Shown here one piece after another: positions 9,673 to 38,044 of a DNA stretch of 64,000 nt. The notes beneath the pieces were generated by a model that did not search any database, had not been told where the DNA came from, and saw nothing but the letters and a program-made list of their open reading frames with translations. Positions within the stretch are counted from its first letter, which is position 1; the number at the start of each line of letters is the position of its first letter. A program made the translations under genes and the position numbers. Origin of the DNA: Hygrophila difformis (taxonomy: Eukaryota > Streptophyta > Magnoliopsida > Lamiales > Acanthaceae); contig JAOANR010000010.1 in NCBI GenBank assembly GCA_030278955.1, positions 19,312,444-19,376,443 on the forward strand. The letters are read 5' to 3'.

Positions 9673-9677
9673 CCACG
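9673..9677. repeat. Target-site duplication CCACG, left copy
   Basis: CCACG precedes the LTR start TGATAATGG; the partner at 29520-29524 follows the LTR end TTTCA. The empty site, AAGCCACGCCTTC, is present in LTR2 of array B. Confidence 0.92.
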
Positions 9678-9977
9678 TGATAATGGCCACAAATGACCAT
9701 TATTTTCAATCCATTTCCGTGTCTTAAACGGGCATTTGATCGCATTCCGGTCTTACATTAAGTAAGAAAGCAGTCGAATTGGACTGATTTATGCATAATT
9801 GTAAAAATATTGAGCTGGTGTGAAAAAGACACAAATATGTAATTTTATTACATATTTATGTTAGAAAAATCCAAAAACATGAGAAAAAGAAAAGGAAACA
9901 AAAAGATGGGAAAAAGATAGACAAGCCCACAAAAAGAATATTTTCGGCCCATCTGGCCCAATCCAGCAGGCCCAGGA

Positions 9978-10230
9978 AGGCCTTTGTCGCGGAAGCCCTT
10001 TGGCGCGATGCAGTGTTCCGCGACAAAGGAGGGTTCCGCGACCAAGCAGCCCAGATGAAGAGGAGACCAGCCATGACCTTTGTCGCGATGACCCTTGTCG
10101 CGGTGGCATGCTCCGCGACAAAGGCATGACTCCGCGACCAAGACACCCAATTAGAGACACAAGACCCAGTCGAGAAGCCTTGCCACATGCAGTATGTTCC
10201 GCGACCAAACTTGATGCTCCGAGACAAAGC
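9978..10230 (+). repeat. GTCGCGG/CCGCGAC motif cluster upstream of the LTR TATA
   Basis: About ten short inverted CpG-rich motifs (TTGTCGCGG and CCGCGACAA forms) lie within 250 bp, 70-320 bp upstream of TATAAATA. The same cluster lies upstream of the TATA of the internal F-box gene (20873-21180), which suggests a shared promoter module. Confidence 0.8.
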
Positions 10231-10299
10231 TGTGATGTGTGTGATGTCTTAAGACACAATGGGCTAGAATCAAGGCCCATGGGCTTAGGGTTACACTTC

Positions 10300-10307
10300 T
10301 ATAAATA
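10300..10307 (+). promoter_or_regulatory. TATA box of the Athila-like 5' LTR
   Basis: TATAAATA about 620 bp into the LTR; the same box is at 25432-25439 in the 3' LTR. Confidence 0.7.
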
Positions 10308-10953
10308 TGAGGTGTCACCCATGAGCTAAGGTTGGAAAAATTGGAATTCTGTTGAGCTCTCTTGAAGACAAGCTTAGGAGTTCTTCCTTAGGTAGAGTAG
10401 TTTAGGTTTATTTTCTTGTATTATTTTTGCTCTTAGCTTAGCTTAGTTTAGTGTTTTACTGTTCACAATGATTTAGATAGCCACTTTACACCATGTTTTG
10501 GTTTCTAAACTCTTATTTTTAAGGTTTGTAATACCCAAATCATGGGTATTAACAACACCCCTTCAATAATATGGGAAAACATTCACCATTTGTGTCCCAA
10601 ATCATGAAATGGGTCTCACACCCCATGGATTTATGCTTTCTTTTTCATTTTGGGGTCTTTTGACCCCCATTATGCTGTTTTTATGTTTACTGTTGGCATA
10701 TTATGGATAATGTTGTGTGAATGTGTGATCAAACCCTAGATTAGGACTCTTGCTTTATTTTTAATATTCTGCTCAGCCTTGTTTATTTTTGTTTAAGCAT
10801 GCTCTTCCTTATTTTGAATGTTTCTTGCTTGTTTTTAGCTTAGAATAGCTTTTTAATCTGAAATAGGGTGAGATCACGCTGTTTGCATGCCACTGTTCAT
10901 TTCTGCTTTTTCTGACTTTTGTCCTGAACCACCTCGGGCGCCAACCGCCTTTT

Positions 10954-11480
10954 GGCGCGGAACCACGTTCCGCGACAAAATGGTTGCTCCGCGACCAAGG
11001 TGTCGCAAGACACTTGTCTCCATAATTTAAAACCCTTTGTCGCGGATCACCTTGTCGCGGAGCCACGTTCCGCGACAAAACCTTCCATGCATAGCGACAA
11101 AGGAGCCAAACTCTCGCATTTTGTCTGCATGGCTTTTTGTCGCGGAATCACCTTGTCGCGGAACCACGTTCCGCGACAAAATCTCATTCTGAGACAGAAA
11201 AATTATGCCATGTTCCTTAATCTTTGAACACTTTGTCGCGGAACACCTTGTCGCGGAACCACGTTCCGCGACAAAATTTCCATGCATAGCGACAAAGGTT
11301 CAAATGCCATAGGAATTTTCTGAAAACACTTTGTCGCGAAACACTCTTGTCGCGGAACCACGTTCCGCGACAAAATCTTGCATAGCGACAAAGAGGCGTT
11401 ATGCTGCCAAAAATTCTAAAAACTTGTCGGGATACCCATGTCGCGGACCTCGGACCGCGACAAAATTTATGGTATCGCGA
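10954..11480 (+). repeat. Tandem hairpin array, period about 98 bp
   Basis: Hairpins of the form TTGTCGCGGAAC-CAC-GTTCCGCGACAA sit at about 10954, 11052, 11153, 11248 and 11347. Three have a perfect 12-bp stem and two have one mismatch. Each is followed by a spacer often containing CATAGCGACAAAG. The repeat creates spurious overlapping ORFs on both strands. Confidence 0.88.
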
Positions 11481-14387
11481 CAAAGACTCACTTCTCTCTA
11501 TTTTTAAACAATCTTCATTCTCTTTCTATATTATATTGCAACACTCACATCATAACCCCACGGGTTAAGGTGTAAAACTCTGGAATTACAATATAGGGTG
11601 TTATGCTGCCCAAATTTTGATTCTCCATTTGCATCACTTAATTAATTGAACCCTTGACTCATTAATGATTAAAGATTGAGATTAGCAATAATCAAACTTC
11701 AATAATCATCATGATTAAAGGACATTTGTTCAATTGCCATTAAAACACTCCTCTATAAACAAATTCTTGATGGCTTAAACAGATAATCTGGACTGTAATT
11801 AATTATGGTAGGAAGGATTATTTGAGACCATCAATTGTGGACCCAATCCCCAACCGTGCATGAGAAACCAATGTCTCTCATACACGGAATCTCCTTTTAT
11901 TCCTTATTGGTTTTGTCTTTGCGTGTTGTGTGTAACAATTAGTAAAGAATACATCAGATTAATGTTGGTGGGTATTCCCTCATGGATAACTAGCTCGTAA
12001 TCTGAGTATTAGTTACTAAGTGTTATTTTGCATGGTCTGGATGACTGTCAGTGGAAGCCTTGGCGGTTCACCCATCCGGGGTTATAATAGCTGCTCGGCT
12101 GATTCCCATCCAGATACAGTTTATTTTTCTCATCTTAATTTCCAAACCCAAATTCCAATCTGTAATGGGAGCCAGTTGGCATCAGTCAATGCCAACTGAC
12201 GATCGTTATAGAAGGGAAGTATGTAGGTTTTTATCCGAATTCACAGACAGTGGAGGCCCAACTGGTATTGACACCACCATTATAGGGTCTAAGCTGTCTA
12301 AATTCGCTCATCCGAGTAATTGGGAAATTGGACAGTAGATGTTTACAGTCCACCTGATTATTCTGCCATTACTTTGGTCCCTTGACCACCTCATATCTGT
12401 GTTTCACCTTCTGTCTAGACCCGCATCTATACTTTGGGTCAATTAATTTTACACTTCCCTATATCTTTATGCATGATAATATTATATACTATTGTGGTCT
12501 GTAATTATTTTGGGATCCTTCCCTTGGACAATAGAAGTCTAGATCTTAAACAGATATTGTGTAATAAATTTCCAACAAAAATCTCTTTCTAAAATCCGGA
12601 TCAGAGTAAGGGATAAATTCCTCAGTTATGACTAATTCATATTCTGTCAAGGGTTGTACTTTGGGAAATTAGAAACAGATTCAGCGATTAGGTCTCATCT
12701 AGACTGAAAGGGTCTGTGTTTTAACTGAGAGTCTAGTACCTGATAGGGAATGATTTTCAAATCCATTATTTTCCAAAACTGCTGGTTGTTGGAAATCTAA
12801 GATTGAGTGCTACACCGAGATGGGGCCCACTTGGACTCAAATACAGTGTAGTAAATAATCTTAGAGGAACATCATCCAGGCCTTGGTTACTTTCTAAGAT
12901 AGGGTTGAGTTTTCTTTCAACTGATATCCTCTTCTGCCAAAGCCTACTTTTGAGTCCTGAGTGAGTGCATCCGGAACGAACTAAATCATTAGTTCGTTTC
13001 ATTAGTTTGTATCTCATAATCACCCGGAAGGAAGTGAACACTGCGAGCAATTCACCAAGAGCCGGGAATTCTTGATCCATACCCAGTCATCTTGACTGGG
13101 TGCTGTCTTTTACTACCAGGGTCAGATTTTCAAAACCTCCGAGTGATAGATTTTAAATGCCTTCTTTACTGCTTTCTTTTAACCGCTTTCATTAGAGGTC
13201 ACTCGGTTGTATTGAGAGTTGTGTAACTGCCACTAGGATTGACAGTTAAGGGATAGTTCAGGGCTAGATTAGAATCTTTGGGTGTGACATGGGAGAATGA
13301 TGGTAGTACTTGGCATTTCAATAAATGATGTGTCGGGTGTTGCTTTTCCACCACAGATGAAGTAACACACCCAGGCCAGGGCAGTTACAAATCTGTGGTA
13401 TCTTAGAATTTGCGGTCTTGAGAACATGTAAACTCATATTGTAAGTACCTGTCCGTTAAAAGGGAAAGCATTGTTGAGAGCATGAGAATTAGCTATCTGA
13501 TAGAATTATCCCAAACAAAGATTTGTGTATAAAAATGGAAGTTTAGTATTGCTTTATCTCACTCTTGTCCAATTTTCATTCTTTTCTTCCTGTCCCTTCT
13601 GTCTACATTGTGATCAGCTTCACGGCTGGCACAATGTAGTTCTTCTCTGCTTTCATAGAGAATGTTTACCGCATTCCTAGAATAATTTTTACCCGCTTTC
13701 TAGAATAGACTTACTCGCTTTGTAGAGTAATTTAACTGCTTCCATAATCTAGTTTAAATTCATGTCAGTAGATGTTAATCACTTTTCAAACCTATTGAGC
13801 AATACGAATGGAAAATCTAGTAAAACGACGTGGGCCCTGCTTCTATCGCACATCCTCCAGTGAACGATCCGGTCTTACTATAAATTACTGCAATTTTTGA
13901 CATCGTGCGCTTTCGGGCCACAGTTTCTTAAACACGAGCAATAAAAACATGACTACTTATAAATATATCCCTAATCACAACCCCGCCTTCATAAATTGGT
14001 TTCATTAAATAAAACCTAAACCAGGATCATGATTTTTTTTTGGAAAATACTCATGTAGTGGGAATCAGTCAAAAAGTTTCATGGCAGGGAATCTTATGGC
14101 AAGAATTGATGAGAAGTATCATGGCATATTTGCCGGGGATCCTCAGTGTGACAGGCTGAAGGTCAACCGATCCCGGTTGTGCCATGAGATTTGTCAACAT
14201 TTCATGACAGAGAGGACCACAGCGCCATTTGAAGCCAAAGCACCACACTTGAGTAATAAAAAAGACTAATAATCTTGATATATCCCTAAACCCTTTCCCG
14301 TGAATCATAACTCTTTTCATTTAATAAAATCTAACCTGGTATATTTTAAAGAAAAAGCTCGTGGGACGGAAATTGTCAAAAGTTTCA

Positions 14388-14404
14388 TGGCGCCGTTGCC
14401 GGGG
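14388..14404 (+). promoter_or_regulatory. Primer-binding site (tRNA-Asp type)
   Basis: TGGCGCCGTTGCCGGGG directly abuts the LTR end at 14387. This is the primer site typical of Athila-type elements, matching the 3' end of tRNA-Asp (from established knowledge; not checked against a tRNA set). Confidence 0.85.
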
Positions 14405-14548
14405 AGGATGCAGCGCCGTTTTGTTTAGAGAATTACATTCCTCATTGCTCCTAGATTAGCCTATACATATAATTATAAATATTCACCTTCAGAACCACTT
14501 CTAACCTGGGGATTGTACAGGTACTGTCATTATTGAAGCCGTTGTTCT

Positions 14549-14920
14549 ATGCAAAGGAGGAAGCAGACGCCAGCCGAGATCCCGTTTAATTCAGAGATAG
14601 AAAAGACAGCTCGACGTCTTAGGGCGGAGACTAAACGAAGAAGGGAACGGGAACGACAGGCACTACTTTCGCCAAGCACTAGCAGCGATATTTCCGAGAT
14701 GGCAAACCCTGACATCCCACCAATCATTCAACCCAATCCCCCACTTCACAACATTGAGGAAGATCCCGAAGATGCTGATCACGATGAATTGGATGATCCC
14801 CCTCCCCAGATCATACAAGGAGGTGGGAACCCACCAAACATGGAGCAGCAACACTTCGAGGCACCCCCTCCCAATCCGAACCATCAAAACCCACCAAACA
14901 ACCAGAACCAACCAAATTAG
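14549..14920 (+). CDS. gag: Gag N-terminus of the Athila-like element, before an amber stop
   Basis: N-terminal piece of the Gag-Pol polyprotein, 123 residues. It starts MQRRKQTPAEIPFN, then a basic, arginine-rich helix (about residues 20-37), an acidic stretch and a proline/asparagine/glutamine-rich tail. It ends at TAG (14918-14920). The same frame stays open without another stop through to 20380, so this is one reading frame broken by one stop. The codon after the stop is CAA. A CAG-to-TAG change in a Q/N-rich stretch would explain it; translational readthrough is the alternative. The ATG at 14549 was chosen as the first in frame after the primer site. Confidence 0.8.
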   Translation: MQRRKQTPAEIPFNSEIEKTARRLRAETKRRRERERQALLSPSTSSDISEMANPDIPPIIQPNPPLHNIEEDPEDADHDELDDPPPQIIQGGGNPPNMEQQHFEAPPPNPNHQNPPNNQNQPN

Positions 14921-15013
14921 CAAAATTTCCAAAACCAGCAGAATCAGCAATACCATAACCCCCATCAGAATCCCCCGAATCCGAATGAGTTCAATGATCC
15001 GAGGAACTATTTC

Positions 15014-18000
15014 ATGCCTCAGAACTACTACCCACAACAGTACCAAGGAGGGCCTGAGAACAATCATCAAGCAGCTGCTGCTGCTGATTACATGCAGCCG
15101 ATTTTAGAGCCATATCTGAATATTCCTGGACAAGCTCCATTCTTGGCTAGGAACTTTGAACTGAAACCGGCCCTAATCAATCTAGTCCAGAGCAACCAAT
15201 TTGCCGGAGCAAGCCATGAAGACCCCCATGATCACCTGCAAACCTTCCTAGAATTGTGTGACACGATCAAAAATCGTGATGTACCCGCAAACACTATTCG
15301 ACTAAGGCTATTTCCCTTCTCTCTGACAAGCGGAGCACGAACATGGTACAAGTCACTGCCCGTAAATCAGAAGTCTACATGGGAAGATGTGATCAGAAAC
15401 TTCCTAGCAAAATACTTCCCGGAGTCCAAGGTGGATGAATGCCGCTCCAAAATTGCGGAATTCAAAATGAAACCAGACGAGTCCCTGTATGATGCAAAGG
15501 AAAGATTCTTCAACCTACTCAGAAAGTGTCCTCAACATGGTTTCCATGACTGGGAGAGATTGAGAAAGTTCTACAGTGGTCTGACCCCAGCATGGAAATC
15601 CATGCTCGATGCTGCTGGTGGTCAACATTTGCTTTACATACCGATGGACCAAGCCTGGGCAAAGATTGAAGCCATGAGTGTAAACCGTTCCGTTCTGACT
15701 GATGATGGTAATCTCACTCCCCCTCGTGGTTTATGTGCTGTGAGTACAGTAGAGAAGTCAGACATTGAAAAGCTTCAAGAGCAAGTGGCAGCGTTGTCTG
15801 TAAATCAAGGAGTTGGAAGTTCTGCGCAGGGACAACAAACTGATGTGATCTGTGGACTGTGTCAAGGTGCTCATGCAACTGACACATGCGAGCAAATCAC
15901 AGCTGAGAGCTGTAACTATGCAGGAGCTTTTCCAAATAGACACCCGAATTTGTCTTACTCAAACAACAACGCCTTGAATTCACATCTCTTGAACAAGCCA
16001 CAGCAACAGCAGTTCAACCCTCAGCAGAATCAGGGATTCAATCAGAACAGGGGCCAACATTTTCAGAATCCAGGTTTCCAACCTCAAATCCAGCAGAGGC
16101 CGCCTCAGAATTTCCAGAACTTTCAGCCCAATCAGACTTTCCAGCCTCAGTTTGTCCCAAACCAAGGCCAGTGGAATCAGAATCAGAATCAAAATCAGAA
16201 TCAGAATCAAAAGCCTCCTTCAAGGCTTGAGAATTTGATGACTGATTTCATCACTAGTCAGAAAGAGATCAACAATCAACTGCAAGCCTCCATCAGAAAT
16301 GTGGAGACCCAAGTTACACAGATGGCTAATGAGATGCAGAAAAGGGACAAAGGAACATTGCCAAGCACTGCAGAAAAGAACCCGCAATGCAAGGCAATAA
16401 CCTTGAAATCTGGAAAAGTACTAGCTGGACCAAAGGGAGCAGATACTGGAGCAGAATTTGAAGAAGATGATATTGTTGACAATGCTGGTAAGGAAGCTGA
16501 TAATGAGAATGGAGCGGAAAAAGAGACAGCCGAATTGCAGACTGAAGTTGCGCCTGAAATGGCTGAAACAGATAAGGGTACAGGTGAAGGTACAACTTCC
16601 TTCCCCTCACCACCAAAAATTCCTAATAACAAGTACATGCCCAGGATTCCTTATCCTGCGCGTCTTAAAAATAAAGAACATGATCTTAAATTCAAGAAAT
16701 TTCTGCAACGATTAAAGTCTGTAGAGATAACCATTCCTCTCACCGAAATGATTTCCGAAATGCCCATCTATGCTAAGTTCTTGAAAGAATTGATTTCAGG
16801 AAAAAGGCAGGTTGAGCAAGAAGAGGTAATTATTCTCAATAGCACATGCAGTGCCATCGTTCAGAGAAGAATGCCTGAAAAGAAGGAGGACCCCGGATGT
16901 TGCACACTTCCAGTACAATTCGGAAAGGCCAAAGTGAGTATGGGGCTCTGTGATTTAGGATCAAGCATCAATGTGATGCCACTAGCTATGGCTGTTCGCC
17001 TTAAGCTTGGAGAGATTCAGCCAATCAAGATGAGACTGCAGCTTGCAGACAGATCGATCACTCAGCCCGTAGGAATCCTTAAGGATGTTGTAGTCAAAAC
17101 CGGGCAGATTCTTTTCCCGGTCGACTTCATCATCCTCGACATTGAAGAGGATTCTGAAATACCGCTTATCCTTGGACGCCCATTTCTAGCCACTGGTGGT
17201 GCACTGATTGACGCCAAATCCGGAAAAGTCACCTTAAGGGTCGATGGCGAGGAGATCATCTTTGATATGGAGAAATTGCAGAAATTTCCGAATGACAGTT
17301 CTTGTTTTTCATTTGAAAATGTAATAGTTAGGGAGGAGCTTGACTGCATCGAATTCCATGATGACGCCAACCAAGAGGAAGAAGAGGATCCTGTACTGAT
17401 GCAGGATCCCGAAGGTAAATCTGTTCTCCCACTACCCATTTCTCGCAAACTACTCCCTTCCGTTGAATGTCCACCAGAGCTTGAACTTAAAACATTACCC
17501 GATCATCTCAAGTATGCGTTTCTCGCAGAACATAAAAAGTTACCCGTGATTGTTTCGGCTAAGCTTTCCCAAGAGCAAGAAAATGCTCTGGTGGTCGTTC
17601 TTAAGAAACATGTACATGCAATAGGTTGGACCATTTCTGATATAAAAGGAATAAGCCCTTCTATTTGCATGCACAGGATTCTAATGGAAGAAGAGTTTAA
17701 ACCCTCCCGTCAACCTCAGAGGCGATTGAACCCCCTTATGCAAGAAGTGGTAAGGAAAGAAGTTATCAAGCTCTTAGATGCTGGTATAATCTATCCTATC
17801 TCTGACAGCAAATGGGTTAGCCCAGTGCAGGTCGTACCCAAACGAGGAGGGATGTGCATAACCAAGAATGAGCACGGAGAAGAGGTTGCAACCAGGCCAG
17901 TGACCGGATGGAGAGTTTGTATCGACTACCGGAAGCTGAACGAGGCCACACGCAAGGACCATTTTCCATTGCCATTCATTGATCAGATGCTTGAGAGGTT

Positions 18001-20380
18001 GGCAGGGAGAGAGTTTTATTGCTTTTTGGATGGTTATTCTAGTTATAATCAGATTGTTATTTCTAGTGAAGACCATGATAAGACCACTTTTACTTGCCCG
18101 TACGGCACTTTTGCCTATCGACGGATGCCTTTTGGTTTGTGCAATGCACCTGCTACTTTTCAAATATGCATGATGTCTATTTTCTCTGAATTTATCGAAA
18201 AATGCATTGAGGTCTTCATGGATGACTTCTCTGTGTATGGAGATACGTTCGAAGATTGTTTGACCAATCTTGCTAAGATTTTAAAGAGGTGTGAGGACAC
18301 TAACTTGGTTTTAAATTGGGAAAAGTGCCATTTTATGGTCACTGAGGGCATAGTGTTAGGTCATCGCATTTCTCGTGCAGGCATTGAAGTTGATCCAGCC
18401 AAAGTTTCCATCATTTCCAATCTCCCTCTTCCTAACTCGATCAAATCAGTTAGGAGCTTCTTAGGGCATGCCGGTTTCTACCGGCGATTCATTAAAGATT
18501 TCTCTAAAATTGCCAAGCCGCTCACTAATCTGCTTTGTAAAGAAAATCCTTTCTTAATAAACGAAGCGTGTGTCCAAGCCTTTGACACGCTCAAGAAGAT
18601 GTTGGTTTCTGCACCGATAGTGCAACCACCCGATTGGTCACTGCCTTTCGAGGTAATGTGCGATGCTAGTGGTCTCGCCGTAGGCGCAGTTCTTGGACAG
18701 CATAAGGATGGGAGACATTGTGTAATTCATTACGCAAGTCATGCCCTGAATGAAGCCCAAGTTAACTACACCACAACGGAGAAAGAGATGTATGCTGTAG
18801 TCTTCACGTTTGACAAGTTCAGACAGTATCTAATAGGTACGAAGACCATAGTATACACCGATCATACATCATTGAGATACTTGTTTAGCAAACAAGATGC
18901 AAAACCTCGATTAATCAGGTGGGTACTTCTGTTGCAAGAATTCGACATCATAATAAAAGATAGGCGAGGTCGAGATAATGGTGCTGCTGACCACTTATCT
19001 CGATTAGATAATGATAAAAAGGAAAAAGCCGTCAATGAAGAGTTTCCGGACGAACAGTTGTTCGGATTGCATCTGCATAATCAAGCTTGTCCATGGTTTT
19101 CCGACATCGCTAACTTCTTGGCGTGCGGAATAACCCCACAGTTTTCGAACTATCATCAGAGGAATAAGTTCAAACGAGATGTATTAAGTTACTTTTGGGA
19201 AGAACCTTATCTCTTCAAACACTGCACCGATTCAATAATCAGGCGATGTGTGACCGAGCATGAAGCCTATCAAATTGTCAGAAAATGCCATGAATCAGAA
19301 TATGGAGGTCACCACGGTCCCGCTCGAACGGCCCACAAGGTCCTCGAATGTGGATTTTATTGGCCTCACATCTATGAGGATTGCAGGACATTTGTTAAGG
19401 GTTGTGACAGATGCCAAAGATTAGGAAGCATCTCCAAGAGGGATGAAATGCCTCAAAAGGGGATTCTCACACTTGAGATCTTTGATGTATGGGACATTGA
19501 CTTCATGGGACCGTTTCCACCATCTGGTGGAAACTACTATATCTTGGTAGCTGTCGATTACGTATCCAAATGGGTCGAGGCTGTCGCATTACCGACCAAT
19601 GATGGTAGCCAAGTCATCAAGTTCCTCAAGAACAACATTTTCAGTCGATTTGGCGTACCTAGGGTGGTGATATCTGATGGAGGAACACACTTTATTAATA
19701 AAGGTTTTGAAACTTTAATGAGTAAAAATGGGATCCTCCACAAGATAGGCACGCCTTACCATCCTCAGACTAGTGGTCAAGTCGAAGTATCCAATCGCGA
19801 AATCAAACATATACTCGAAGCCACTGTTGGGATAACCCGTAAGGATTGGGCACGTAAGCTCAATGATGCTCTATGGGCATACCGCACAGCATTTAAGACT
19901 CCCATCGGGATGTCTCCATACAGGCTGGTCTTTGGAAAAGCCTGTCATCTGCCTGTAGAGCTAGAGCATAAAGCTTACTGGGCCGTTAAAACGCTCAACT
20001 TCGATCCGAAAGTTGCTCAGAGCAAACGTAAGTTGGACCTCAATGAAATTGAGGAAATACGAGCGCAAGCTTATGAAAGCTCTCGAATTTACAAGGAGCG
20101 GACCCAGAAGTTACACGATCGCCGGATTAAGCCTAAGTATTTCTATGTTGGTCAACATGTGCTATTGTTCAATACTAGGTTGAAGCTGTTCCCCGGAAAG
20201 CTCAAGTCTAGATGGGAAGGACCACATGAAGTATTAGAGGTGTTCAAAAATGGAGCTGTCAGGATTCGAACTGGCAGGGGCGATATAGTGGTGAATGGAC
20301 AACGATTAAAAGAGTACCTCGGACAGTTCGATCCGGAGAAAGAAAGCCAAGCAGTGGCAGACCCGGCTTACATTCAATAA
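15014..20380 (+). CDS. gag-pol: Gag-Pol polyprotein, Athila-like
   Basis: A 1788-residue frame encoding capsid, protease, reverse transcriptase, RNase H and integrase for copying and inserting the element. Order: capsid domain (about 30-235), zinc-knuckle-like C280-C283-H287-C292, Q/N-rich spacer (about 320-410), aspartic protease with DLGSS at 647, RT with FMDD at 1068-1071, RNase H with catalytic-type D1217, integrase zinc finger (H1426, a second His near 1433, C1464, C1467), and integrase core D1496, D1555, E1591 with the classic 35-residue last spacing. No frameshift or internal stop was found after 14920, and the listed catalytic motifs are present. The true N-terminus lies upstream at 14549 if the amber codon is read through. 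No chromodomain was seen, as expected for the Athila/Tat group. Confidence 0.95.
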
Positions 20381-20500
20381 GAAACAGCATTTAAAAACAC
20401 AAAAATTTCAGTTTATATATAGATAGTATATATTTATAGTATTTATTTCATGACAAGAAAGTACCCAAAGATTAATTAAACATTTATAGTACTAAGACTC

Positions 20501-21196
20501 TAAATGTGAGGATGTTGATATTTGGAGAAAATCTAATGCGTCTTATTTGTCTGTCTTGCAGAAGTTCGGAACCACCAAAAAGACGGAGCAGATAAGAGTA
20601 ACATGGAAAAACCAGGTTCTTGGTTGGATTAGTTCTATAAATCTGAGAAAACGCTTTCGGAAATTGAAGAAATTCAATACCCGAAATAAAATTCACAAGA
20701 TAAATGGAACTGACCCAACCTAATTTTATGCAAGTGGATTATTTAAATTTTCTGCCCAGCATTTTGAATTTACTTGGACTGAATTTATTCAGCCCAAATC
20801 AAATAAAATGGACTCAGGCCCAACATCACACTCGGGCCCAGTCCAAGAAAATTTGAAATTCAAAAATTCTTTGTCGCGGAAGGTCCTTTGTCTCGATGTC
20901 ATGCATCGCGACCAGGCCCTGCTCCACGACAAACTCCCTTTCTTTCTTAACTCTTCTCTGCTGGTTGTCGCGATGCACCTTGTCGCGGAGCATGACTCCG
21001 CGACCAGGCCCTGCTCCGCGACACAACCTGCGTTGACTGTCTCCATACTGAACTTTGTCGCGATAGCCCTGTCGCGGAGCATGACTCCGCGCCCAACTCT
21101 CAGCTCCGCGACCTCTCTGATGTCGCTATGCCTTGTCGCGGAACCTGGTTCCGCGACAAAGTCTCGGATTCCGCGACAAAGATTCTAGTATTTATA
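20501..21196 (+). promoter_or_regulatory. Internal LTR-like U3 and promoter with a second PPT-like site
   Basis: The 20-base word TAAATGTGAGGATGTTGATA at 20501-20520 is identical to 24795-24814, which spans the real PPT and LTR start. The following 670 bp resemble the LTR U3: GGCCCA motifs, then TTTGTCGCGGAAG and a GTCGCGG/CCGCGAC cluster (20873-21180), then TATTTATA at 21189-21196. TATA is about 670 bp from the TG start here and about 620 bp in the real LTR. It lies about 150 bp upstream of F-box exon 1, so it is the likely promoter of that gene (inference). Confidence 0.65.
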
Positions 21197-21343
21197 CCCC
21201 CCACCCCCTCCAGTTTCTTTTCACTTTCTCCTGTCATTTCAACTTCCTCCAACTTCTTCATCTTCTTTCTCCCATTTTTCTCTCATCCGAACGAACACCA
21301 CGTGTTCTTCGCAACCTTAGCACTCTATTTTCAAGGGGAAACT

Positions 21344-23114
21344 ATGGACCGATTTCATGGACTCCTTCCCAATCTTGGATCCGTGCCTAGACCCGAGCCA
21401 AGGAGGAGAGGGTAAACCCTGTTTTCGCCATGTTCATAACACCCATTCGGACCCTTTATTTTGTTTTCATTTTGTTGTGCTCTTGGTGTGGTGTTGTTAG
21501 TGTGCACATTTAACTTTAGATTTTTTTTTTTGAGGTTTTTGAGTGCTCTCGGTTATGAGCACCATTTTGAAACATCTGAAACCCCATTTTGAAACTGGTA
21601 ATGGTTTAAAGATTTTGAAGTTTTAAAACTGGAAAGAACAAGCTGATGAACATTTGGGTATTATTTTGAATATCTTGATGTTGTTGGTTTGATTGATCCT
21701 GATGTGATGTGCACAGTGTTGAGTTGGTGTAATAAAAGAGGTAAGATCTCTTTGGGCACATTTGTCCCCATGTTAGAAATCTCATGGGAATAAATGTTTG
21801 TTTGTTTATGGAAACATAGTACAAACACCCAATGGGAAGCTTCCACTTTTAATAAAAGCAACCCTTTAGAAAAAGACAAAAAGAGTTATTTTTGTTTAAT
21901 GTTTGGCTAGAGCCTTTTGTTCCCAATGGAACACTAGTGTGAGTAAGATAGCAGTATTTTTGTCACCCAAACTGCTATCCTTTTCAAAATCCAAAATGGG
22001 ACCACTCACATCCCAATTTTATTAAATAAAACAAGTCAACCATTTTAAAATTAAAAACAGTGTCTACAAATTTTTGGATGCTTTAACTGTCCAGACAGTC
22101 CAAGCTATCCAGAAATAGCAGATCCGTTCCGCCACGTCTCCATTGCACATTCCAATATTCGAGCACTCCATTTCCATCTGTCCATCCCATTCCACTTCCA
22201 ACAAGTGTCTCGGACTTGTTTAATAAAATTGAAAAAATTTTGGGCCCAATGGCCCATTAAAAAGATTTTAGGCCCAATGGCCAATTTTATTTTATTTTGG
22301 GCTCCTTAGCCCAATTAAAACCAAATATTATTTACATGTGCTTTAAATTAAAATTCAAGTCAGAAATTTAATAATCTCACATTCAGAGCAATGTTGGTTT
22401 CTCAACTTGAATAATTTATAAAAAACTGGATTCATCACTTCTTATCTTTTCAGGGGTAATCCTCCCATTCCAGATCCTGCACCAGAAGGAACCAAGTTGC
22501 TGGACTTACCGGTCGAACTCCTTGGTGAAATTCTCTCCCGGATAGGAGAGGATGAAATCAAGGAGGTGTTTACTGCACAACGAGTATGCAAGAAGTTCAG
22601 AGATGCTGGAAGCCTTGCCATCGTGTACAAGCGATGTGAAGTTAACTCCTCCACTGTGAAGAGATGGCAAGTAAGGATCCGTCGGCAAAAGGAGAGATTC
22701 CTGCGAATGTGCACAGCGGCAGGAAATTTCAATCTCCAGATTATCCCAGCACTCAGGGCTTTTGCAGAACGGAATGAGGGGCACGCCTGTGAACTGCTAC
22801 GCCCAGGACTTGAGGACAACCATAAGGCATCAATCTTCACCCGCGGACTGATGCTTATGAGTAAGACGGACGAAGGCCAAGTTGAGCAGGGAATCAGAAT
22901 GATCGACAGGATGGTGACAGATCGATCAGTTTTTCGGTATACGTCCATCAACGTCCTCGCTTGGATAACTGACAACCCAGACAACCCACAACTGTGGGCG
23001 GACCAAGGAGTCAGAGTCTACTGCCCAAGATGGCATGCACCTCTGAGAAACCGCGATTGGTGCCTGCGTTGTGAGCTTTCCAGCTGTGTCCTCTGGCTCC
23101 GATACATGCCCTGA
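21344..23114 (+). CDS. F-box protein gene inside the Athila-like element (two exons)
   Basis: Predicted substrate-binding subunit of an SCF ubiquitin ligase. Exon 1 is 21344-21411, the intron 21412-22453 (GTAAAC...TTTTCAG, 1042 bp), exon 2 22454-23114. The 68 and 661 coding bases sum to 243 codons with stop, and the frame is kept across the junction. The N-terminal third has an F-box pattern: LPVELLGEILSRIGEDE, then VCKKFRDAG. The C-terminal end is rich in Cys/Trp/His (YCPRWHAP, DWCLRCELSSC), resembling the Cys-rich tail of one plant F-box group (tentative). It sits where Athila-type elements usually carry an env-like frame, behind an LTR-like promoter. The exon 2 frame is open; splicing is inferred from the sequence. 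It could be a captured host gene. Whether it is functional is unknown. Confidence 0.72.
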
Positions 23115-24794
23115 AGAAAGAAGGACGAATCCTAGTCCCATTTTATCCTGCTTTTATTTCAATTCCGTTTTAGTAGTAGTAATCTGCAAGGGACTCCTCC
23201 TTTTGTGTGTGCAGGTTCGTATTAACTGCACGAGAATCCCTTGCCTCGGTTGTATTTATTTGCTTTCCCTAAAATTGGAACTCAGCTTTTGAGGCCACTA
23301 AACATATCTTTACTTGCTTTCCATTTCTAAAAAGATGTCTGTACAGTCCGAGATGAATAAGTGACTGTCAGACCAAAAATATGCTGTTGACATACTCAGT
23401 ATGTCAGCAGTGCTTCTTTACTGCTTTCAATTAAGCAACCAGCAAAAATATGCATAAACCTGTTCTAAATTCACAGGTTGAATTTAGGCTTGTGATTAAA
23501 TTTTCAAACTTTTAAATTGGGATAATATAATTGAAGACATGCATGACATGAATTCCTAAGGTTTTGAGCTATAAAAATTTAATGATGTGATCAGCTTATT
23601 GGGTAATAAATCTGCATGTTAGAGATTTTGATTGAATAAGTTGTTAGAATTAAGTTTTGATTAAATTTGAGAATATTGTATGACATGAATCAACCCAACC
23701 TTGTGAGATTTGAGCCATGAGTCACTTTTACTCATTTATTTTCTTTGATGTGTGAATCATTTTGATTAAAGGAAACTAGAACTTGCAATTGGGACCGATT
23801 CAAGACCATGCCATATTCCCAAAATCGAGCATATGATCGAGGCACCTAGAAAACCCAAAGTTTTGGCCTTCTTTTGAAATCCAAACCCAAAAATATTTTC
23901 CCTTTAAGATTAACCAATTTGAGCCTTAAGCCTAATTTTTCTTTGAAGCCCCCTATATTATTCCTATCCCTACAAAAAGACCAAGAAAATCAAACCCAAG
24001 TGTGCAAGAAGGAATTCTATCAAAGGCATTAAATTTGTGATCATCAGAAAAAGTATTAATCGGTATTTCAATAAACCGATTCAAAAAAAAAAAAAAAAAA
24101 AAAAGAGAGAGAGAGAAAATGTTGAGTTTCATTCAACAACAATAAATTGCAAATGACAAAGCAAATTAGACATAGTCTAATGTCATGCAATAGAAAAGAA
24201 AATCAAAAAGAAAGAAACAATGATGATCATAAATTTTAAATAAAAATGCCAAGTTATGATAGATTAATTCTTGCCACTTCTTAGCCCAATAATTTCCCTT
24301 TCCTACCTAGTGTTACAACCGTATGCCCCGTTATAACCCTTAAATAAGACCTCCTGATCTCGATTTGAAGAAATGAGCCGGTGGCGAGTTGATCTGATTG
24401 CAAGCCTATGGGATAATTTAATTAAAATTGATTATGAGCGTTCAATGATTAAACCCCAATTGAGAGTGAGTGAATTTTCCGATTCTCTTATAAGTGAGGC
24501 TCCGTTTCATTAAGAATGTTCATGTCATGCCTTAATTCTAATTTTTAATCTTTGCATCTTTCAAACATGATATTCATGAAGGATTGATAATAATGTTTGA
24601 TTTGTAGGCCCGATGTAGTGAGCAAGTATCATTTCATTAAACACTGCAATCAAGGGAGTTTAATGCTTGTAGTCTTTGATTGTCTTATTCCAATCCAAAA
24701 AGGATGTGATTTATGAAGCCACGAAAATGAATTGAATATGTAGAGTCCGTGTTCTTACGAACATTGACTCTGACTGCTCGGGGACGATCAGTAT
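23115..24794 (+). other. Non-coding region between F-box gene and 3' LTR
   Basis: AT-rich sequence with no convincing ORF. It includes a run of about 22 A followed by a GA repeat (about 24083-24116) and a short hairpin just before it. The F-box 3' UTR presumably lies at its left end. At 24774-24791 a near-perfect hairpin (CTGCTCG-GGGA-CGATCAG) precedes the PPT. Confidence 0.6.
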
Positions 24795-24809
24795 TAAATG
24801 TGAGGATGT
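24795..24809 (+). promoter_or_regulatory. Polypurine tract of the Athila-like element
   Basis: TAAATGTGAGGATGT directly before the LTR start TGATAATGG. It is a weakly purine tract similar in form to the AAGTGTGGGGAT-type PPTs of Athila elements. Confidence 0.7.
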
Positions 24810-27800
24810 TGATAATGGCCACAAATGACCATTATTTTCAATCCATTTCCGTGTCTTAAACGGGCATTTGATCGCATTCCGGTCTTACATTAAGTAAGAA
24901 AGCAGTCGAATTGGACTGATTTATGCATAATTGTAAAAATATTGAGCTGGTGTGAAAAAGACACAAATATGTAATTTTATTACATATTTATGTTAGAAAA
25001 ATCCAAAAACATGAGAAAAAGAAAAGGAAACAAAAAGATGGGAAAAAGATAGACAAGCCCACAAAAAGAATATTTTCGGCCCATCTGGCCCAATCCAGCA
25101 GGCCCAGGAAGGCCTTTGTCGCGGAAGCCCTTTGGCGCGATGCAGTGTTCAGCGACAAAGGAGGGTTCCGCGACCAAGCAGCCCAGATGAAGAGGAGACC
25201 AGCCATGACCTTTGTCGCGATGACCCTTGTCGCGGTGGCATGCTCCGCGACAAAGGCATGACTCCGCGACCAAGACACCCAATTAGAGACACAAGACCCA
25301 GTCGAGAAGCCTTGCCACATGCAGTATGTTCCGCGACCAAACTTGATGCTCCGAGACAAAGCTGTGATGTGTGTGATGTCTTAAGACACAATGGGCTAGA
25401 ATCAAGGCCCATGGGCTTAGGGTTACACTTCTATAAATATGAGGTGTCACCCATGAGCTAAGGTTGGAAAAATTGGAATTCTGTAGAGCTCTCTTGAAGA
25501 CAAGCTTAGGAGTTCTTCCTTAGGTAGAGTAGTTTAGGTTTATTTTCTTGTATTATTTTTGCTCTTAGCTTAGCTTAGTTTAGTGTTTTACTGTTCACAG
25601 TGATTTAGATAGCCACTTTACACCATGTTTTGGTTTCTAAACTCTTATTTTTAAGGTTTGTAATACCCAAATCATGGGTATTAACAACACCCCTTCAATA
25701 ATATGGGAAAACATTCACCATTTGTGTCCCAAATCATGAAATGGGTCTCACACCCCATGGATTTATGCTTTCTTTTTCATTTTGGGGTCTTTTGACCCCC
25801 ATTATGCTGTTTTTATGTTTACTGTTGGCATATTATGGATAATGTTGTGTGAATGTGTGATCAAACCCTAGATTAGGACTCTTGCTTTATTTTTAATATT
25901 CTGCTCAGCCTTGTTTATTTTTGTTTAAGCATGCTCTTCCTTATTTTGAATGTTTCTTGCTTGTTTTTAGCTTAGAATAGCTTTTTGATCTGAAATAGGG
26001 TGAGATCACGCTGTTTGCATGCCACTGTTCATTTCTGCTTTTTCTGACTTTTGTCCTGAACCACCTCGGGCGCCAACCGCCTTTTGGCGCGGAACCACGT
26101 TCCGCGACAAAATGGTTGCTCCGCGACCAAGGTGTCTCAAGACACTTGTCTCCATAATTTAAAACCCTTTGTCGCGGATCACCTTGTCGCGGAGCCACGT
26201 TCCGCGACAAAACCTTCCATGCATAGCGACAAAGGAGCCAAACTCTCGCATTTTGTCTGCATGGCTTTTTGTCGCGGAATCACCTTGTCGCGGAACCACG
26301 TTCCGCGACAAAATCTCATTCTGAGACAGAAAAATTATGCCATGTTCCTTAATCTTTGAACACTTTGTCGCGGAACACCTTGTCGCGGAACCACGTTCCG
26401 CGACAAAATTTCCATGCATAGCGACAAAGGTTCAAATGCCTTAGGAATTTTCTGAAAACACTTTGTCGCGAAACACTCTTGTCGCGGAACCACGTTCCGC
26501 GACAAAATCTTGCATAGCGACAAAGAGGCGTTATGCTGCCAAAAATTCTAAAAACTTGTCGGGATACCCATGTCGCGGACCTCGGACGGCGACAAAATTT
26601 ATGGTATCGCGACAAAGACTCACTTCTCTCTATTTTTAAACAATCTTCATTCTCTTTCTATATTATATTGCAACACTCACATCATAACCCCACGGGTTAA
26701 GGTGTAAAACTCTGGAATTGCAATATAGGGTGTTATGCTGCCCAAATTTTGATTCTCCATTTGCATCACTTAATTAATTGAACCCTTGACTCATTAATGA
26801 TTAAAGATTGAGATTAGCAATAATCAAACTTCAATAATCATCATGATTAAAGGACCTTTGTTCAATTGCCATTAAAACACTCCTCTATAAACAAATTCTT
26901 GATGGCTTAAACAGATAATCTGGACTGTAATTAATTATGGTAGGAAGGATTATTTGAGACCATCAATTGTGCACCCAATCCCCAACCGTGCATGAGAAAC
27001 CAATGTCTCTCATACACGGAATCTCCTTTTATTCCTTATTGATTTTGTCTTTGCGTGTTGTGTGTAACAATTAGTAAAGAATACATCAGATTGATGTTGG
27101 TGGGTATTCCTTCATGGATAACTAGCTCGTAATCTGAGTATTAGTTACTAAGTGTTATTTTGCATGGTCTGGATGACTGTCAGTGGAAGCCTTGGCGGTT
27201 CACCCATCCGGGGTTATAATAGCTGCTCGGCTGATTCCCATCCAGATACAGTTTATTTTTCTCATCTTAATTTCCAAACCCAAATTCCAATCTGTAATGG
27301 GAGCCAGTTGGCATCGGTCAATGCCAACTGACGATCGTTATAGAAGGGAAGTATGTAGGTTTTTATCCGAATTCACAGACAGTGGAGGCCCAACTGGTAT
27401 TGACACCACCATTATAGGGTCTAAGCTGTCTAAATTCGCTCATCCGAGTAATTGGGAAATTGGACAGTAGATGTTTACAGTCCACCTGATTATTCTGCCA
27501 TTACTTTGGTCCCTTGACCACCTCATATCTATGTTTCACCTTCTGTCTAGACCCGCATCTATACTTTGGGTCAATTAATTTTACACTTCCCTATATCTTT
27601 ATGCATGATAATATTATATACTATTGTGGTCTGTAATTATTTTGGGATCCTTCCCTTGGACAATAGAAGTCTAGATCTTAAACAGATATTGTGTAATAAA
27701 TTTCCAACAAAAATCTCTTTCTAAAATCCGGATCAGAGTAAGGGATAAATTCTTCAGTTATGACTAATTCATATTCTGTCAAGGGTTGTACTTTGGGAAA

Positions 27801-29519
27801 TTAGAAACAGATTCAGCGATTAGGTCTCATCTAGACTGAAAGGGTCTGTGTTTTAACTGAGAGTCTAGTACCTGATAGGGAATGATTTTCAAATCCATTA
27901 TTTTCCAAAACTGTTGGTTGTTGGAAATCTAAGATTGAGTGCTACACCGAGATGGGGCCCACTTGGACTCAAATACAGTGTAGTAAATAATCTTAGAGGA
28001 ACATCATCCAGGCCTTGGTTACTTTCTAAGATAGGGTTGAGTTTTCTTTCAACTGCTATCCTCTTCTGCCAAAGCCTACTTTTGAGTCCTGAGTGAGTGC
28101 ATCCGGAACGAACTAAATCATTAGTTCGTTTCATTAGTTTGTATCTCATAATCACCCGGAAGGAAGTGAACACTGCGAGCAATTCACCAAGAGCCGGGAA
28201 TTCTTGATCCATACCCAGTCATCTTGACTGGGTGCTGTCTTTTACTACCAGGGTCAGATTTTCAAAACCTCCGAGTGATAGATTTTAAATGCCTTCTTTA
28301 CTGCTTTCTTTTAACCGCTTTCATTAGAGGTCACTCGGTTGTATTGAGAGTTGTGTAACTGCCACTAGGATTGACAGTTAAGGGATAGTTCAGGGCTAGA
28401 TTAGAATCTTTGGGTGTGACATGGGAGAATGATGGTAGTACTTGGCATTTCAATAAATGATGTGTCGGGTGTTGCTTTTCCACCACAGATGAAGTAACAC
28501 ACCCAGGCCAGGGCAGTTACAAATCTGTGGTATCTTAGAATTTGCGGTCTTGAGAACATGTAAACTCATATTGTAAGTACCTGTCTGTTAAAAGGGAAAG
28601 CATTGTTGAGAGCATGAGAATTAGCTATCTGATAGAATTATCCCAAACAAAGATTTGTGTATAAAAATGGAAGTTTAGTATTGCTTTATCTCACTCTTGT
28701 CCAATTTTCATTCTTTTCTTCCTGTCCCTTCTGTCTACATTGTGATCAGCTTCACGGCTGGCACAATGTAATTCTTCTCTGCTTTCATAGACAATGTTTA
28801 CCGCATTCCTAGAATAATTTTTACCCGCTTTCTAGAATAGACTTACTCGCTTTGTAGAGTAATTTAACTGCTTCCATAATCTAGTTTAAATTCATGTCAG
28901 TAGATGTTAATCACTTTTCAAACCTATTGAGCAATACGAATGGAAAATCTAGTAAAACGACGTGGGCCCTGCTTCTATCGCACATCCTCCAGTGAACGAT
29001 CCGGTCTTACTATAAATTACTGCAATTTTTGACACCGTGCGCTTTCGGGCCACAGTTTCTTAAACACGAGCAATAAAAACATGACTACTTATAAATATAT
29101 CCCTAATCACAACCCCGCCTTCATAAATTGGTTTCATTAAATAAAACCTAAACCAGGATCATGATTTTTTTTCGGAAAATACTCATGTAGTGGGAATCAG
29201 TCAAAAAGTTTCATGGCAGGGAATCTTATGGCAAGAATTGATGAGAAGTATCATGGCATATTTGCCGGGGATCCTCAGTGTGACAGGCTGAAGGTCAACC
29301 GATCCCGGTTGTGCCATGAGATTTGTCAACATTTCATGACAGAGAGGACCACAGCGCCATTTGAAGCCAAAGCACCACACTTGAGTAATAAAAAAGACTA
29401 ATAATCTTGATATATCCCTAAACCCTTTTTCGTGAATCATAACTCTTTTCATTTAATAAAATCTAACCTGGTATATTTTAAAGAAAAAGCTCGTGGGACG
29501 GAAATTGTCAAAAGTTTCA
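24810..29519 (+). mobile_element. 3' LTR of the Athila-like element
   Basis: 4710 bp, the same length as the 5' LTR, with about 25 single-base differences noted by eye. It repeats the U3 motif cluster (25110-25362), TATAAATA (25432-25439) and the hairpin array (about 26086-26612). It ends TTTCA, followed by TSD CCACG. Confidence 0.93.
26086..26612 (+). repeat. Tandem hairpin array in the 3' LTR
   Basis: Copy of the 10954-11480 array, with the same roughly 98-bp period and the GTCGCGGAAC-CAC-GTTCCGCGAC hairpins. One outer motif differs by a substitution (CGGACGGCGAC against CGGACCGCGAC). Confidence 0.85.
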
Positions 29520-29524
29520 CCACG
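29520..29524. repeat. Target-site duplication CCACG, right copy
   Basis: Matches 9673-9677 and precedes CCTTCAAAATAG, the continuation of LTR1 of array B. Confidence 0.92.
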
Positions 29525-32092: not shown

Positions 32093-33202
32093 ATGGCGCC
32101 TATGAGAAAACCAAGGAAGGTGAGTCCAAACGGCACTGACGCTAACCTTTCCAACACGCCCAACAACGGTGAAAGTCCTCAGAACCTAGGAGTGCATGTG
32201 CCTCAAGCGCCCAATAATATGGAAGCACGTTTAAAAACGATAGAGGGAATCCTAGTAGCATTAGGAAATGCGGAGGTGCATAGGACACCTGCAGCAGTAC
32301 CTCTGCCCGTAGCTCAAACCAACTATCTAGCGTTGGTGAATCCCTATCAACCACCACACTATGATGGGCAGGAGGATCCCGCCAAACTAGAGGGGTGGAT
32401 CTGTACATTTGATAAGCTCTTGGATGCTATCAAATGTCCTGATGAGGCAAAGACACGAGTAGCAACATACTACTTAGGAGGCGAAGCCGATGAGTGGTGG
32501 CAAGACCTCCAGAGGAATTTAGAGGAAGCTGAAGAAGTTTATTCGTGGACTAAACTTAAGGAGGATCTAAGGGACCGATTCTACCCCATGAGCACCAAGG
32601 CGGCAATGTACGAAGAGTTTTTATCACTGAAGCAAGAGGGACGGACGGTGAAGGAGTATTACACCCGGTTTAAGGAGTTGGTACGATTTGCTACGAGGAT
32701 AGTACCAACCGACTCTGACAAGGCTCAGAAATTCGAGATGGGTCTGAACCTTAGTATCCGGGAGATACTTGCAGTAGGACAATTCACGAACCTGCAAACG
32801 GTTTATGATCGAGCTGTAGCAATTGATCGAGTCCAGCAACTGAAGCGTAAGGAAAATGGGGAGTCGAGCAAGGACTCGCAAGGATTTGAGAAGAAGAATC
32901 GAAGCAATAACGGTGGACAAGATAGGAACGAGAATAAGGATTTCTATAATGGGAGAAATGGCATACGTCGTACAGTCGTACCACGTTGCCCACAGTGCCA
33001 CCAAGCCCATCTGGTGCGCGAATGCCCAAGGCGCGGGACTTGTTATAGATGTGGTGGGGAAGACCACATGATTAGAGAATGTAATGTTCGTGAGGAGAAG
33101 ATTGAGAAGAGGCTAGACTTTGTAAATCCGCAACATGGAGATCAAGGAAGAGCTGTGGGATGGTTGAACGACGACGATCAAGCTGACGTGCCAACTCAAT
33201 GA
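32093..33202 (+). CDS. gag: gag of element B, copy 1
   Basis: Intact 369-residue Gag. The N-terminus is low complexity; the capsid-type Retrotrans_gag domain spans about 85-235 (YQPPHYDGQEDP, GGEADEWW, FEMGLNLSIRE). Two zinc knuckles follow: C299-C302-H306-C311 (C-x2-C-x3-H-x4-C) and C317-C320-H325-C330 (classic CCHC), expected to bind element RNA. The last 18 or so residues (GWLNDDDQADVPTQ) align with the start of protease in element D, so the frame runs into a protease remnant before stopping. No protease, RT or integrase follows; the PPT is about 75 bp away. The protein is identical to copy 2. The ATG was chosen because it matches the start of gag A3. Confidence 0.93.
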   Translation: MAPMRKPRKVSPNGTDANLSNTPNNGESPQNLGVHVPQAPNNMEARLKTIEGILVALGNAEVHRTPAAVPLPVAQTNYLALVNPYQPPHYDGQEDPAKLEGWICTFDKLLDAIKCPDEAKTRVATYYLGGEADEWWQDLQRNLEEAEEVYSWTKLKEDLRDRFYPMSTKAAMYEEFLSLKQEGRTVKEYYTRFKELVRFATRIVPTDSDKAQKFEMGLNLSIREILAVGQFTNLQTVYDRAVAIDRVQQLKRKENGESSKDSQGFEKKNRSNNGGQDRNENKDFYNGRNGIRRTVVPRCPQCHQAHLVRECPRRGTCYRCGGEDHMIRECNVREEKIEKRLDFVNPQHGDQGRAVGWLNDDDQADVPTQ

Positions 33203-36934: not shown

Positions 36935-38044
36935 ATGGCGCCTATGAGAAAACCAAGGAAGGTGAGTCCAAACGGCACTGACGCTAACCTTTCCAACACG
37001 CCCAACAACGGTGAAAGTCCTCAGAACCTAGGAGTGCATGTGCCTCAAGCGCCCAATAATATGGAAGCACGTTTAAAAACGATAGAGGGAATCCTAGTAG
37101 CATTAGGAAATGCGGAGGTGCATAGGACACCTGCAGCAGTACCTCTGCCCGTAGCTCAAACCAACTATCTAGCGTTGGTGAATCCCTATCAACCACCACA
37201 CTATGATGGGCAGGAGGATCCCGCCAAACTAGAGGGGTGGATCTGTACATTTGATAAGCTCTTGGATGCTATCAAATGTCCTGATGAGGCAAAGACACGA
37301 GTAGCAACATACTACTTAGGAGGCGAAGCCGATGAGTGGTGGCAAGACCTCCAGAGGAATTTAGAGGAAGCTGAAGAAGTTTATTCGTGGACTAAACTTA
37401 AGGAGGATCTAAGGGACCGATTCTACCCCATGAGCACCAAGGCGGCAATGTACGAAGAGTTTTTATCACTGAAGCAAGAGGGACGGACGGTGAAGGAGTA
37501 TTACACCCGGTTTAAGGAGTTGGTACGATTTGCTACGAGGATAGTACCAACCGACTCTGACAAGGCTCAGAAATTCGAGATGGGTCTGAACCTTAGTATC
37601 CGGGAGATACTTGCAGTAGGACAATTCACGAACCTGCAAACGGTTTATGATCGAGCTGTAGCAATTGATCGAGTCCAGCAACTGAAGCGTAAGGAAAATG
37701 GGGAGTCGAGCAAGGACTCGCAAGGATTTGAGAAGAAGAATCGAAGCAATAACGGTGGACAAGATAGGAACGAGAATAAGGATTTCTATAATGGGAGAAA
37801 TGGCATACGTCGTACAGTCGTACCACGTTGCCCACAGTGCCACCAAGCCCATCTGGTGCGCGAATGCCCAAGGCGCGGGACTTGTTATAGATGTGGTGGG
37901 GAAGACCACATGATTAGAGAATGTAATGTTCGTGAGGAGAAGATTGAGAAGAGGCTAGACTTTGTAAATCCGCAACATGGAGATCAAGGAAGAGCTGTGG
38001 GATGGTTGAACGACGACGATCAAGCTGACGTGCCAACTCAATGA
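36935..38044 (+). CDS. gag: gag of element B, copy 2
   Basis: 369-residue Gag identical in protein sequence to copy 1, with the same capsid domain, two zinc knuckles (299-311 and 317-330) and protease-remnant C-terminus. Identity of the protein and flanking DNA shows that the unit was duplicated recently. It is preceded by LTR2 and a primer-binding site and followed by the same double PPT module. Both frames are open and could supply Gag, but no enzyme genes lie in the array. Confidence 0.93.
   Translation: MAPMRKPRKVSPNGTDANLSNTPNNGESPQNLGVHVPQAPNNMEARLKTIEGILVALGNAEVHRTPAAVPLPVAQTNYLALVNPYQPPHYDGQEDPAKLEGWICTFDKLLDAIKCPDEAKTRVATYYLGGEADEWWQDLQRNLEEAEEVYSWTKLKEDLRDRFYPMSTKAAMYEEFLSLKQEGRTVKEYYTRFKELVRFATRIVPTDSDKAQKFEMGLNLSIREILAVGQFTNLQTVYDRAVAIDRVQQLKRKENGESSKDSQGFEKKNRSNNGGQDRNENKDFYNGRNGIRRTVVPRCPQCHQAHLVRECPRRGTCYRCGGEDHMIRECNVREEKIEKRLDFVNPQHGDQGRAVGWLNDDDQADVPTQ

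Follow-up and report, generated by a model that had tools for sequence, protein, structure and literature searches.

Plants silence retrotransposons by means of small RNAs and DNA methylation, and to our knowledge few plant elements have proteins that push back against that silencing. SCF ubiquitin ligases have their targets held by F-box proteins. Among the closest described systems is the Athila lineage of plant Ty3/gypsy elements, in which an env-like ORF lies between pol and the 3′ LTR (available parts of PMC6317226 and PMC7264820). A different type of example is provided by Gypsy elements of Phalaenopsis, which carry an AlkB-type m6A demethylase with a proposed role in host conflict (available part of PMC9289625, whose main text has no mention of an F-box). 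From outside the retrotransposons, the P0 protein of poleroviruses is also pertinent; according to the available portions of its literature it has an F-box-like motif, is a silencing suppressor and can target AGO1, with autophagy contributing to AGO1 loss. A full-text literature search, judged by titles and the starts of abstracts, yielded no F-box-bearing LTR retrotransposon lineage; supplements, subscription papers and a Prunus review with eight F-box mentions (PMC13359793) lay outside its scope.

The locus dealt with here is in a window (the whole stretch of DNA analysed, 64,000 nucleotides) of Hygrophila difformis contig JAOANR010000010.1, and positions are those of the window. LTR comparison, end signals and the target-site duplication place an element at 9678-29519. 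Its 5′ LTR (9678..14387, + strand) and 3′ LTR (24810..29519, +), both 4710 bp, align without gaps and with 25 mismatches, i.e. 99.47% identity; their termini are TG...CA, and the 5-bp duplication CCACG is present at both flanks (9673..9677 and 29520..29524, no strand assigned), so that the perfect duplication and near-identical LTRs of a preliminary description of this DNA are borne out. Next to the 5′ LTR is a primer-binding site read from the sequence, TGGCGCCGTTGCCGGGGA (14388..14405, +), which we take to be of tRNA-Asp type. A single gag-pol frame of 1788 aa (15014..20380, +) has profile matches for gag, protease, RT, RNase H and integrase, that for the aspartic protease scoring 21.7 bits, under its Pfam cut-off of 24.3. 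Two LTRs, their TG...CA ends, the duplication and gag-pol together are the features of an LTR retrotransposon. The RT motif and the tRNA-Asp primer-binding site are presumably marks for placement in Athila as opposed to Tat. With Pfam, at E up to 1, no second RNase H (aRH, the Tat marker) was found besides the RT-linked type, and absence of aRH is what separates Athila from Tat in the available part of PMC6317226. The earlier view of the element as young and Athila-like is supported. Its gag-pol order is that of Athila, and like Athila it has a further gene on the sense strand, placed behind pol and ahead of the 3′ LTR; the difference is that this gene is a spliced F-box/TPR_27 gene and not an env-like or Athila ORF-1 frame.

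Some further features of the window and of related copies are recorded here as observations in their own right. Short repeats with palindromes, TTGTCGCGGAAC...GTTCCGCGACAA, are abundant in the LTRs (11029-11378 and 26162-26510) and before the F-box gene (~20900-21180). Many of the integrase-ranked matches listed from the same genome have a longer gag-pol open frame (~1990 aa) than that of the window (1819), which suggests a subfamily with an extended N-terminus. Elsewhere in the window, identical 369-aa gag frames at 32093-33202 and 36935-38044, with a spacing of 4842 bp, are accompanied by a second identical frame pair (33640, 38477) of similar spacing, pointing to another LTR element arranged in tandem.

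The F-box gene consists of exon 1 (21344..21411, +; 68 nt, 22 codons plus 2 nt), a phase 2 GT...AG intron of 1042 bp (21412..22453, +) and exon 2 (22454..23114, +). Joined in frame, the exons give 242 residues and then a stop; the coordinates, intron and product in the preliminary description are all correct. In the exon-2 protein (P0002) the F-box occupies approximately residues 15-51 and TPR_27 residues 74-157, with a Cys-rich C-tail following. The F-box that had been read as a pattern is recognized by Pfam, as PF00646 scores 22.4 bits on exon 2, above the cut-off of 20.5, and F-box-like PF12937 scores 23.2 bits, below its cut-off of 24.3. The plant TPR domain TPR_27 (PF23310; 31 bits, cut-off 27) had been overlooked. 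By profile scores the protein belongs to the F-box family and to the plant F-box/TPR_27 proteins. AlphaFold, run on exon 2 as a single sequence, gave a model too poor for use in a search (mean pLDDT 39.5), and no PDB sequence matching the F-box protein was found. About 150 nt 5′ of the exon 1 ATG there is a TATA-like TATTTATACCC (21189..21199, +). Since a TATTTATA/TTTTTATA motif is present in this region of 27 of 29 aligned copies and, by reading, a TATA-like motif at comparable spacing also precedes two genes of the second family described below, an internal promoter is possible.

A search of the same genome (915 Mb, 246 contigs) with the exon-2 protein gave 6331 first-look candidates and at least 150 copies, the window included. 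The best 150, which were listed, are all full length or one residue short and 92-100% identical; in this ranking by the window protein, 145 are stop-free and five are broken. The best 30 of the at least 150 loci were taken for splice and context tests. Intron sequence was matched in all 30, in some partly, and exon 1 was findable in 29. Both junctions keep GT and AG in each of these 29 (GT donor 29/29), with an open 242-aa joined product in 26. For ten copies chosen from the best 30, the integrase end is upstream (in two pieces in two of the ten) and the 3′ LTR start is at the corresponding downstream place in every case.

Because ranking by protein score favours intact genes, two further samples were drawn. 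Sample (a) was ranked by the non-coding DNA behind the gene, and 20 of the 40 listed matches were taken (rows 2-17, 19 and 21-23; the window itself ranks first, the loci of rows 18 and 20 were already in use, and rows 24-40 were left out). Exon 2 is present in all 20 and open throughout in 14; there is a stop in four (L066, L077, L078, L081) and a frameshift-type indel in L076, and the first 7 bases of exon 2 are absent from the piece of L082 that was analysed. Sample (b) was ranked by the integrase end, for which there were 25712 first-look candidates and at least 134 matches, all 99-100% identical at the amino acid level because so ranked; eight loci were used (rows 4, 16, 28, 40, 52, 64, 76 and 88). 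Exon 2 is in place in all eight. In seven it is full length and open, with 68-94% identity to the window protein, and in L111 an internal deletion has left only exon-2 residues 147-218. Of the conditions that the preliminary description named as refuting it, a missing F-box profile hit and absence or decay of the gene in all other copies were both checked, and neither holds: the profile matches, and the gene is present and mostly open elsewhere. The window copy did not itself pick the gene up, as a gene found in all three copy samples is not one captured by a single copy (transduction). The gene is instead a long-established part of the element family, with diverged cassettes.

Constraint on the encoded protein is evident from the codon pattern. 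Mean pairwise dN/dS for the 30 protein-ranked copies is 0.168 (435 pairs). With L076 and L082 dropped, the means for sample (a) are 0.255 for the 21 pairs of its group 1 (seven sequences, one of them that of the window), 0.170 for the 66 pairs of group 2 (12 sequences) and 0.273 for the 84 pairs that span the two groups. Measured against the window copy, sample (b) has dN/dS values of 0.15-0.23 at dS of 0.18 to 1.15. A simple neutral simulation yielded a mean dN/dS of 1.01 (2.5-97.5%: 0.56-1.81) and 1.5 stops per copy. As low dN/dS persists over deep divergence in sample (b), the constraint is long-lasting. At family level the F-box gene is under purifying selection, which shows that it is used, not for what. 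An intact and selected gene in many copies suggests that the element uses its F-box gene rather than merely carrying it as cargo. Non-coding flanks among copies are also fairly conserved, and the selection argument therefore rests on codon pattern and open frames. Median identity to the window copy is 95.9% for exon 2 versus 90.9% for the intron; intron-versus-exon conservation was dropped as a selection test, column conservation across 29 copies being similar over most of the intron. The majority residues of groups 1 and 2 in sample (a) differ at none of the 12 N-tail sites, one of 48 F-box sites, eight of 100 sites in the TPR region and 26 of 59 C-tail sites, a distribution in which the F-box, the putative docking domain, is fixed and the presumed target-facing C-tail variable.

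The F-box exon and pol have different depths of divergence. Compared with the window, L113, L115 and L117 have dS of 0.15-0.19 in the last 300 bases of pol and 0.99-1.15 in the F-box exon; for L116 against L113 the values are 0.095 in the pol end and 0.98 in the F-box exon. From this contrast, in a comparison that covered four copies, deeply diverged F-box cassettes stand behind near-identical pol ends. On sequence reading, L082 resembles a hybrid of groups 1 and 2. Old, selected cassettes appear to have been reshuffled among elements, for which recombination among co-packaged element RNAs is a likely route.

A second family came to light in addition. A TPR_27 search of the same genome gave at least 150 matches, with stops in 3 of the 150 listed, and 20 loci of 3.1-3.3 kb each were cut out. 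Nineteen of these contain a pair of frames that are relatives of the window protein, with 30-38% identity over the main matches (in L042 one member of the pair is partial); the twentieth, L047, is considered below with the question of origin. Neither the pol end of the window nor its exon 1, intron, exon 2 or 3′ region has a DNA match in the 20 loci, and three of the 20 have matches of 42-67 bases to the repeat-rich stretch of the window at 20381-21343. Larger stretches show the context. In stretch B (L061+L062, 16 kb), whose RNase H-integrase part is 69% identical to that of the window, five frames related to the window protein are behind integrase and are followed by frames that include a PF20167 match. 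Frame 1 of stretch B starts with an ATG, is without an intron and, by reading, has an early stop in that copy. When the window protein and four B frames are aligned, F-box-type profiles match all five and TPR_27 four of the five; for the four B frames alone the counts are four and three (E up to 0.1 throughout). Stretch A (L059+L060, C11:18050001-18066000) has gag and protease and then directly the region behind pol, with four frames related to the window protein, one of them in two pieces. No match to RT or integrase was found in stretch A, and from its sequence the copy looks non-autonomous.

First exons of the form ATGGC...AACAA(T/C)CC/GTAAGC are present at B 3651, B 5640, A 4043 and A 5875, and by reading the acceptors of B frames 2-5 are phase 2, the same as that of the window. 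As no first exon of the ATGGC...GTAAGC type is present before B frames 4 and 5, in gaps of <190 and <125 bp, splicing of these frames from further upstream is suggested, with another type of first exon also possible. Second-family frame 4, which was not the frame used to rank these loci, has a dN/dS of 0.121 (171 pairs, 18 loci plus reference, with the partial L042 dropped), and frame 5 one of 0.114 (190 pairs, 19 loci plus reference). Frame 4 is nonetheless interrupted by a stop in L056, and L039 and L049 have frameshift-type indels in it; frame 5 has stops in three loci (L040, L043 and L045), with an indel as well in L043. By all appearances of its frames, the F-box-type exon is multiplied in the sister family.

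With respect to origin, capture from the host is plausible, given that the same genome contains L047, a host-like F-box/TPR_27 gene (TPR_27 52.7 bits; F-box and C-terminal Cys motif by reading). An F-box, TPR_27 and C-terminal Cys are common to it and the element gene, but by reading the introns of L047 fall within the part that the element carries as a single exon. That, and the lack of a tblastn match between the window protein and L047, led to its rejection as direct donor, and no direct host donor gene was found. The search with L047 gave 75 matches, many of them broken; some, which share a recurring frame length, come from a Helitron-like repeat. Two loci, L107 (C2:15356000-15360500) and L108 (C5:43724200-43728700), are 99.6% identical over 4.5 kb and have an L047-type (TPR_27) exon near a frame which we take to resemble a Helitron helicase-like domain; a second type of transposon may have taken up the host gene family of L047. 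Further afield, viral_contigs yielded no close relatives of gag-pol or exon 2. In a set of 5.8 billion proteins the 242-aa protein gave 373 candidates, none at E <= 10, and a five-member profile 2058, none at E <= 1. Plants are represented in that set, since a gag-pol control returned 7956 scored proteins and those named among the 120 listed are mostly plant; both searches depend on annotated frames and on 5-residue words in common, and their negative outcome does not establish absence elsewhere.

Parallels with the systems mentioned at the outset are partial. Like the AlkB elements of Phalaenopsis, as the available part of their description presents them, the present ones are large gypsy elements from a diverse lineage that has kept a host-type domain; unlike them, the domain is an F-box and not a demethylase, and there are a retained intron, discordant cassettes and the tandem frames of a second family. 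Polerovirus P0, again from partial accounts, is likewise a parasite-encoded F-box-type protein and so a possible model for mechanism, but it comes from an RNA virus, and the parallel drawn is one of F-box type. The explanation towards which we lean, if only somewhat, is that the gene encodes an accessory SCF substrate receptor, a standing gene of an Athila-like lineage that serves the element, likely by acting against host silencing or defence. Host SKP1 would be bound by the N-terminal F-box, and the target by the TPR_27 region together with the Cys-rich C-tail. Synthesis would be from spliced mRNA, produced from an internal promoter, by splicing of the RNA of the element, or by both. The receptor would direct ubiquitination of an element-limiting protein, most probably a host factor of silencing or defence, and this would help the element to spread. 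Purifying selection would arise because elements losing the F-box gene leave fewer descendants, and cassettes would recombine among elements, with the exon multiplied in the sister family. Survival of the intron through RNA-based copying implies that genomic RNA must usually escape splicing there.

A bolder proposal, put forward tentatively, is that of a plant lineage with a swappable arsenal of SCF substrate receptors, in which a near-constant pol is combined with exchanged old, selected cassettes that may disarm host transposon silencing. The up to five tandem F-box-type exons of the sister family, of which at least two lack a visible first exon, would then be as if alternatively spliced, like retroviral accessory genes.

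Other explanations differ in how they fare against the same evidence. Simple passenger DNA, i.e. a trapped gene fragment carried without function, was left as an option by the preliminary description. Gene trapping by plant LTR elements is known (available part of PMC7264820), and single broken copies do occur (4/20 with stops and 1/20 with a frameshift-type indel in sample (a)). At family level it is nonetheless very unlikely, given the mostly open frames and dN/dS of 0.15-0.27, at dS to 1.15, in samples not ranked by the F-box, splice sites kept in 29/29, reshuffled cassettes, and related tandem frames in the second family at dN/dS 0.11-0.12. A better candidate, though still an improbable one, is that the F-box protein acts on the life cycle of the element itself, in turnover of Gag, integrase or particles, or in expression timing. 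Selection and conserved position fit it equally well, and other conserved extra ORFs of plant LTR elements have been suggested to matter for retrotransposition (PMC7264820, available part). Against it, a protein whose partner is a constant self protein should vary less than the seven F-box exons do, which are 68-94% identical in amino acids to that of the window while the integrase ends are 99-100% identical. This argument is weak because the copies were ranked by integrase.

The modest F-box score of 22.4 bits leaves some room for a gene that is real and selected but whose F-box no longer binds SKP1, the TPR_27/Cys part having another role in the env position. It is doubtful, as the F-box is the best conserved domain between the cassette groups (1/48 differences) and F-box-type profiles match 5/5 aligned members. 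Just as doubtful is selection at the level of the host, with the plant using some element-borne F-box genes and the intact copies deriving from recent bursts of a few masters; bursts of this sort yield intact frames for free, and many copies are intact, but constraint between deeply diverged cassettes (dN/dS about 0.2 at dS about 1) and the conserved place of the gene in dispersed elements speak against it. An intron kept through RNA-based copying is a clean puzzle, and a lineage that keeps, shuffles and multiplies a selected F-box gene would allow one to ask directly whether plant retrotransposons, like some viruses, hijack ubiquitin ligases.
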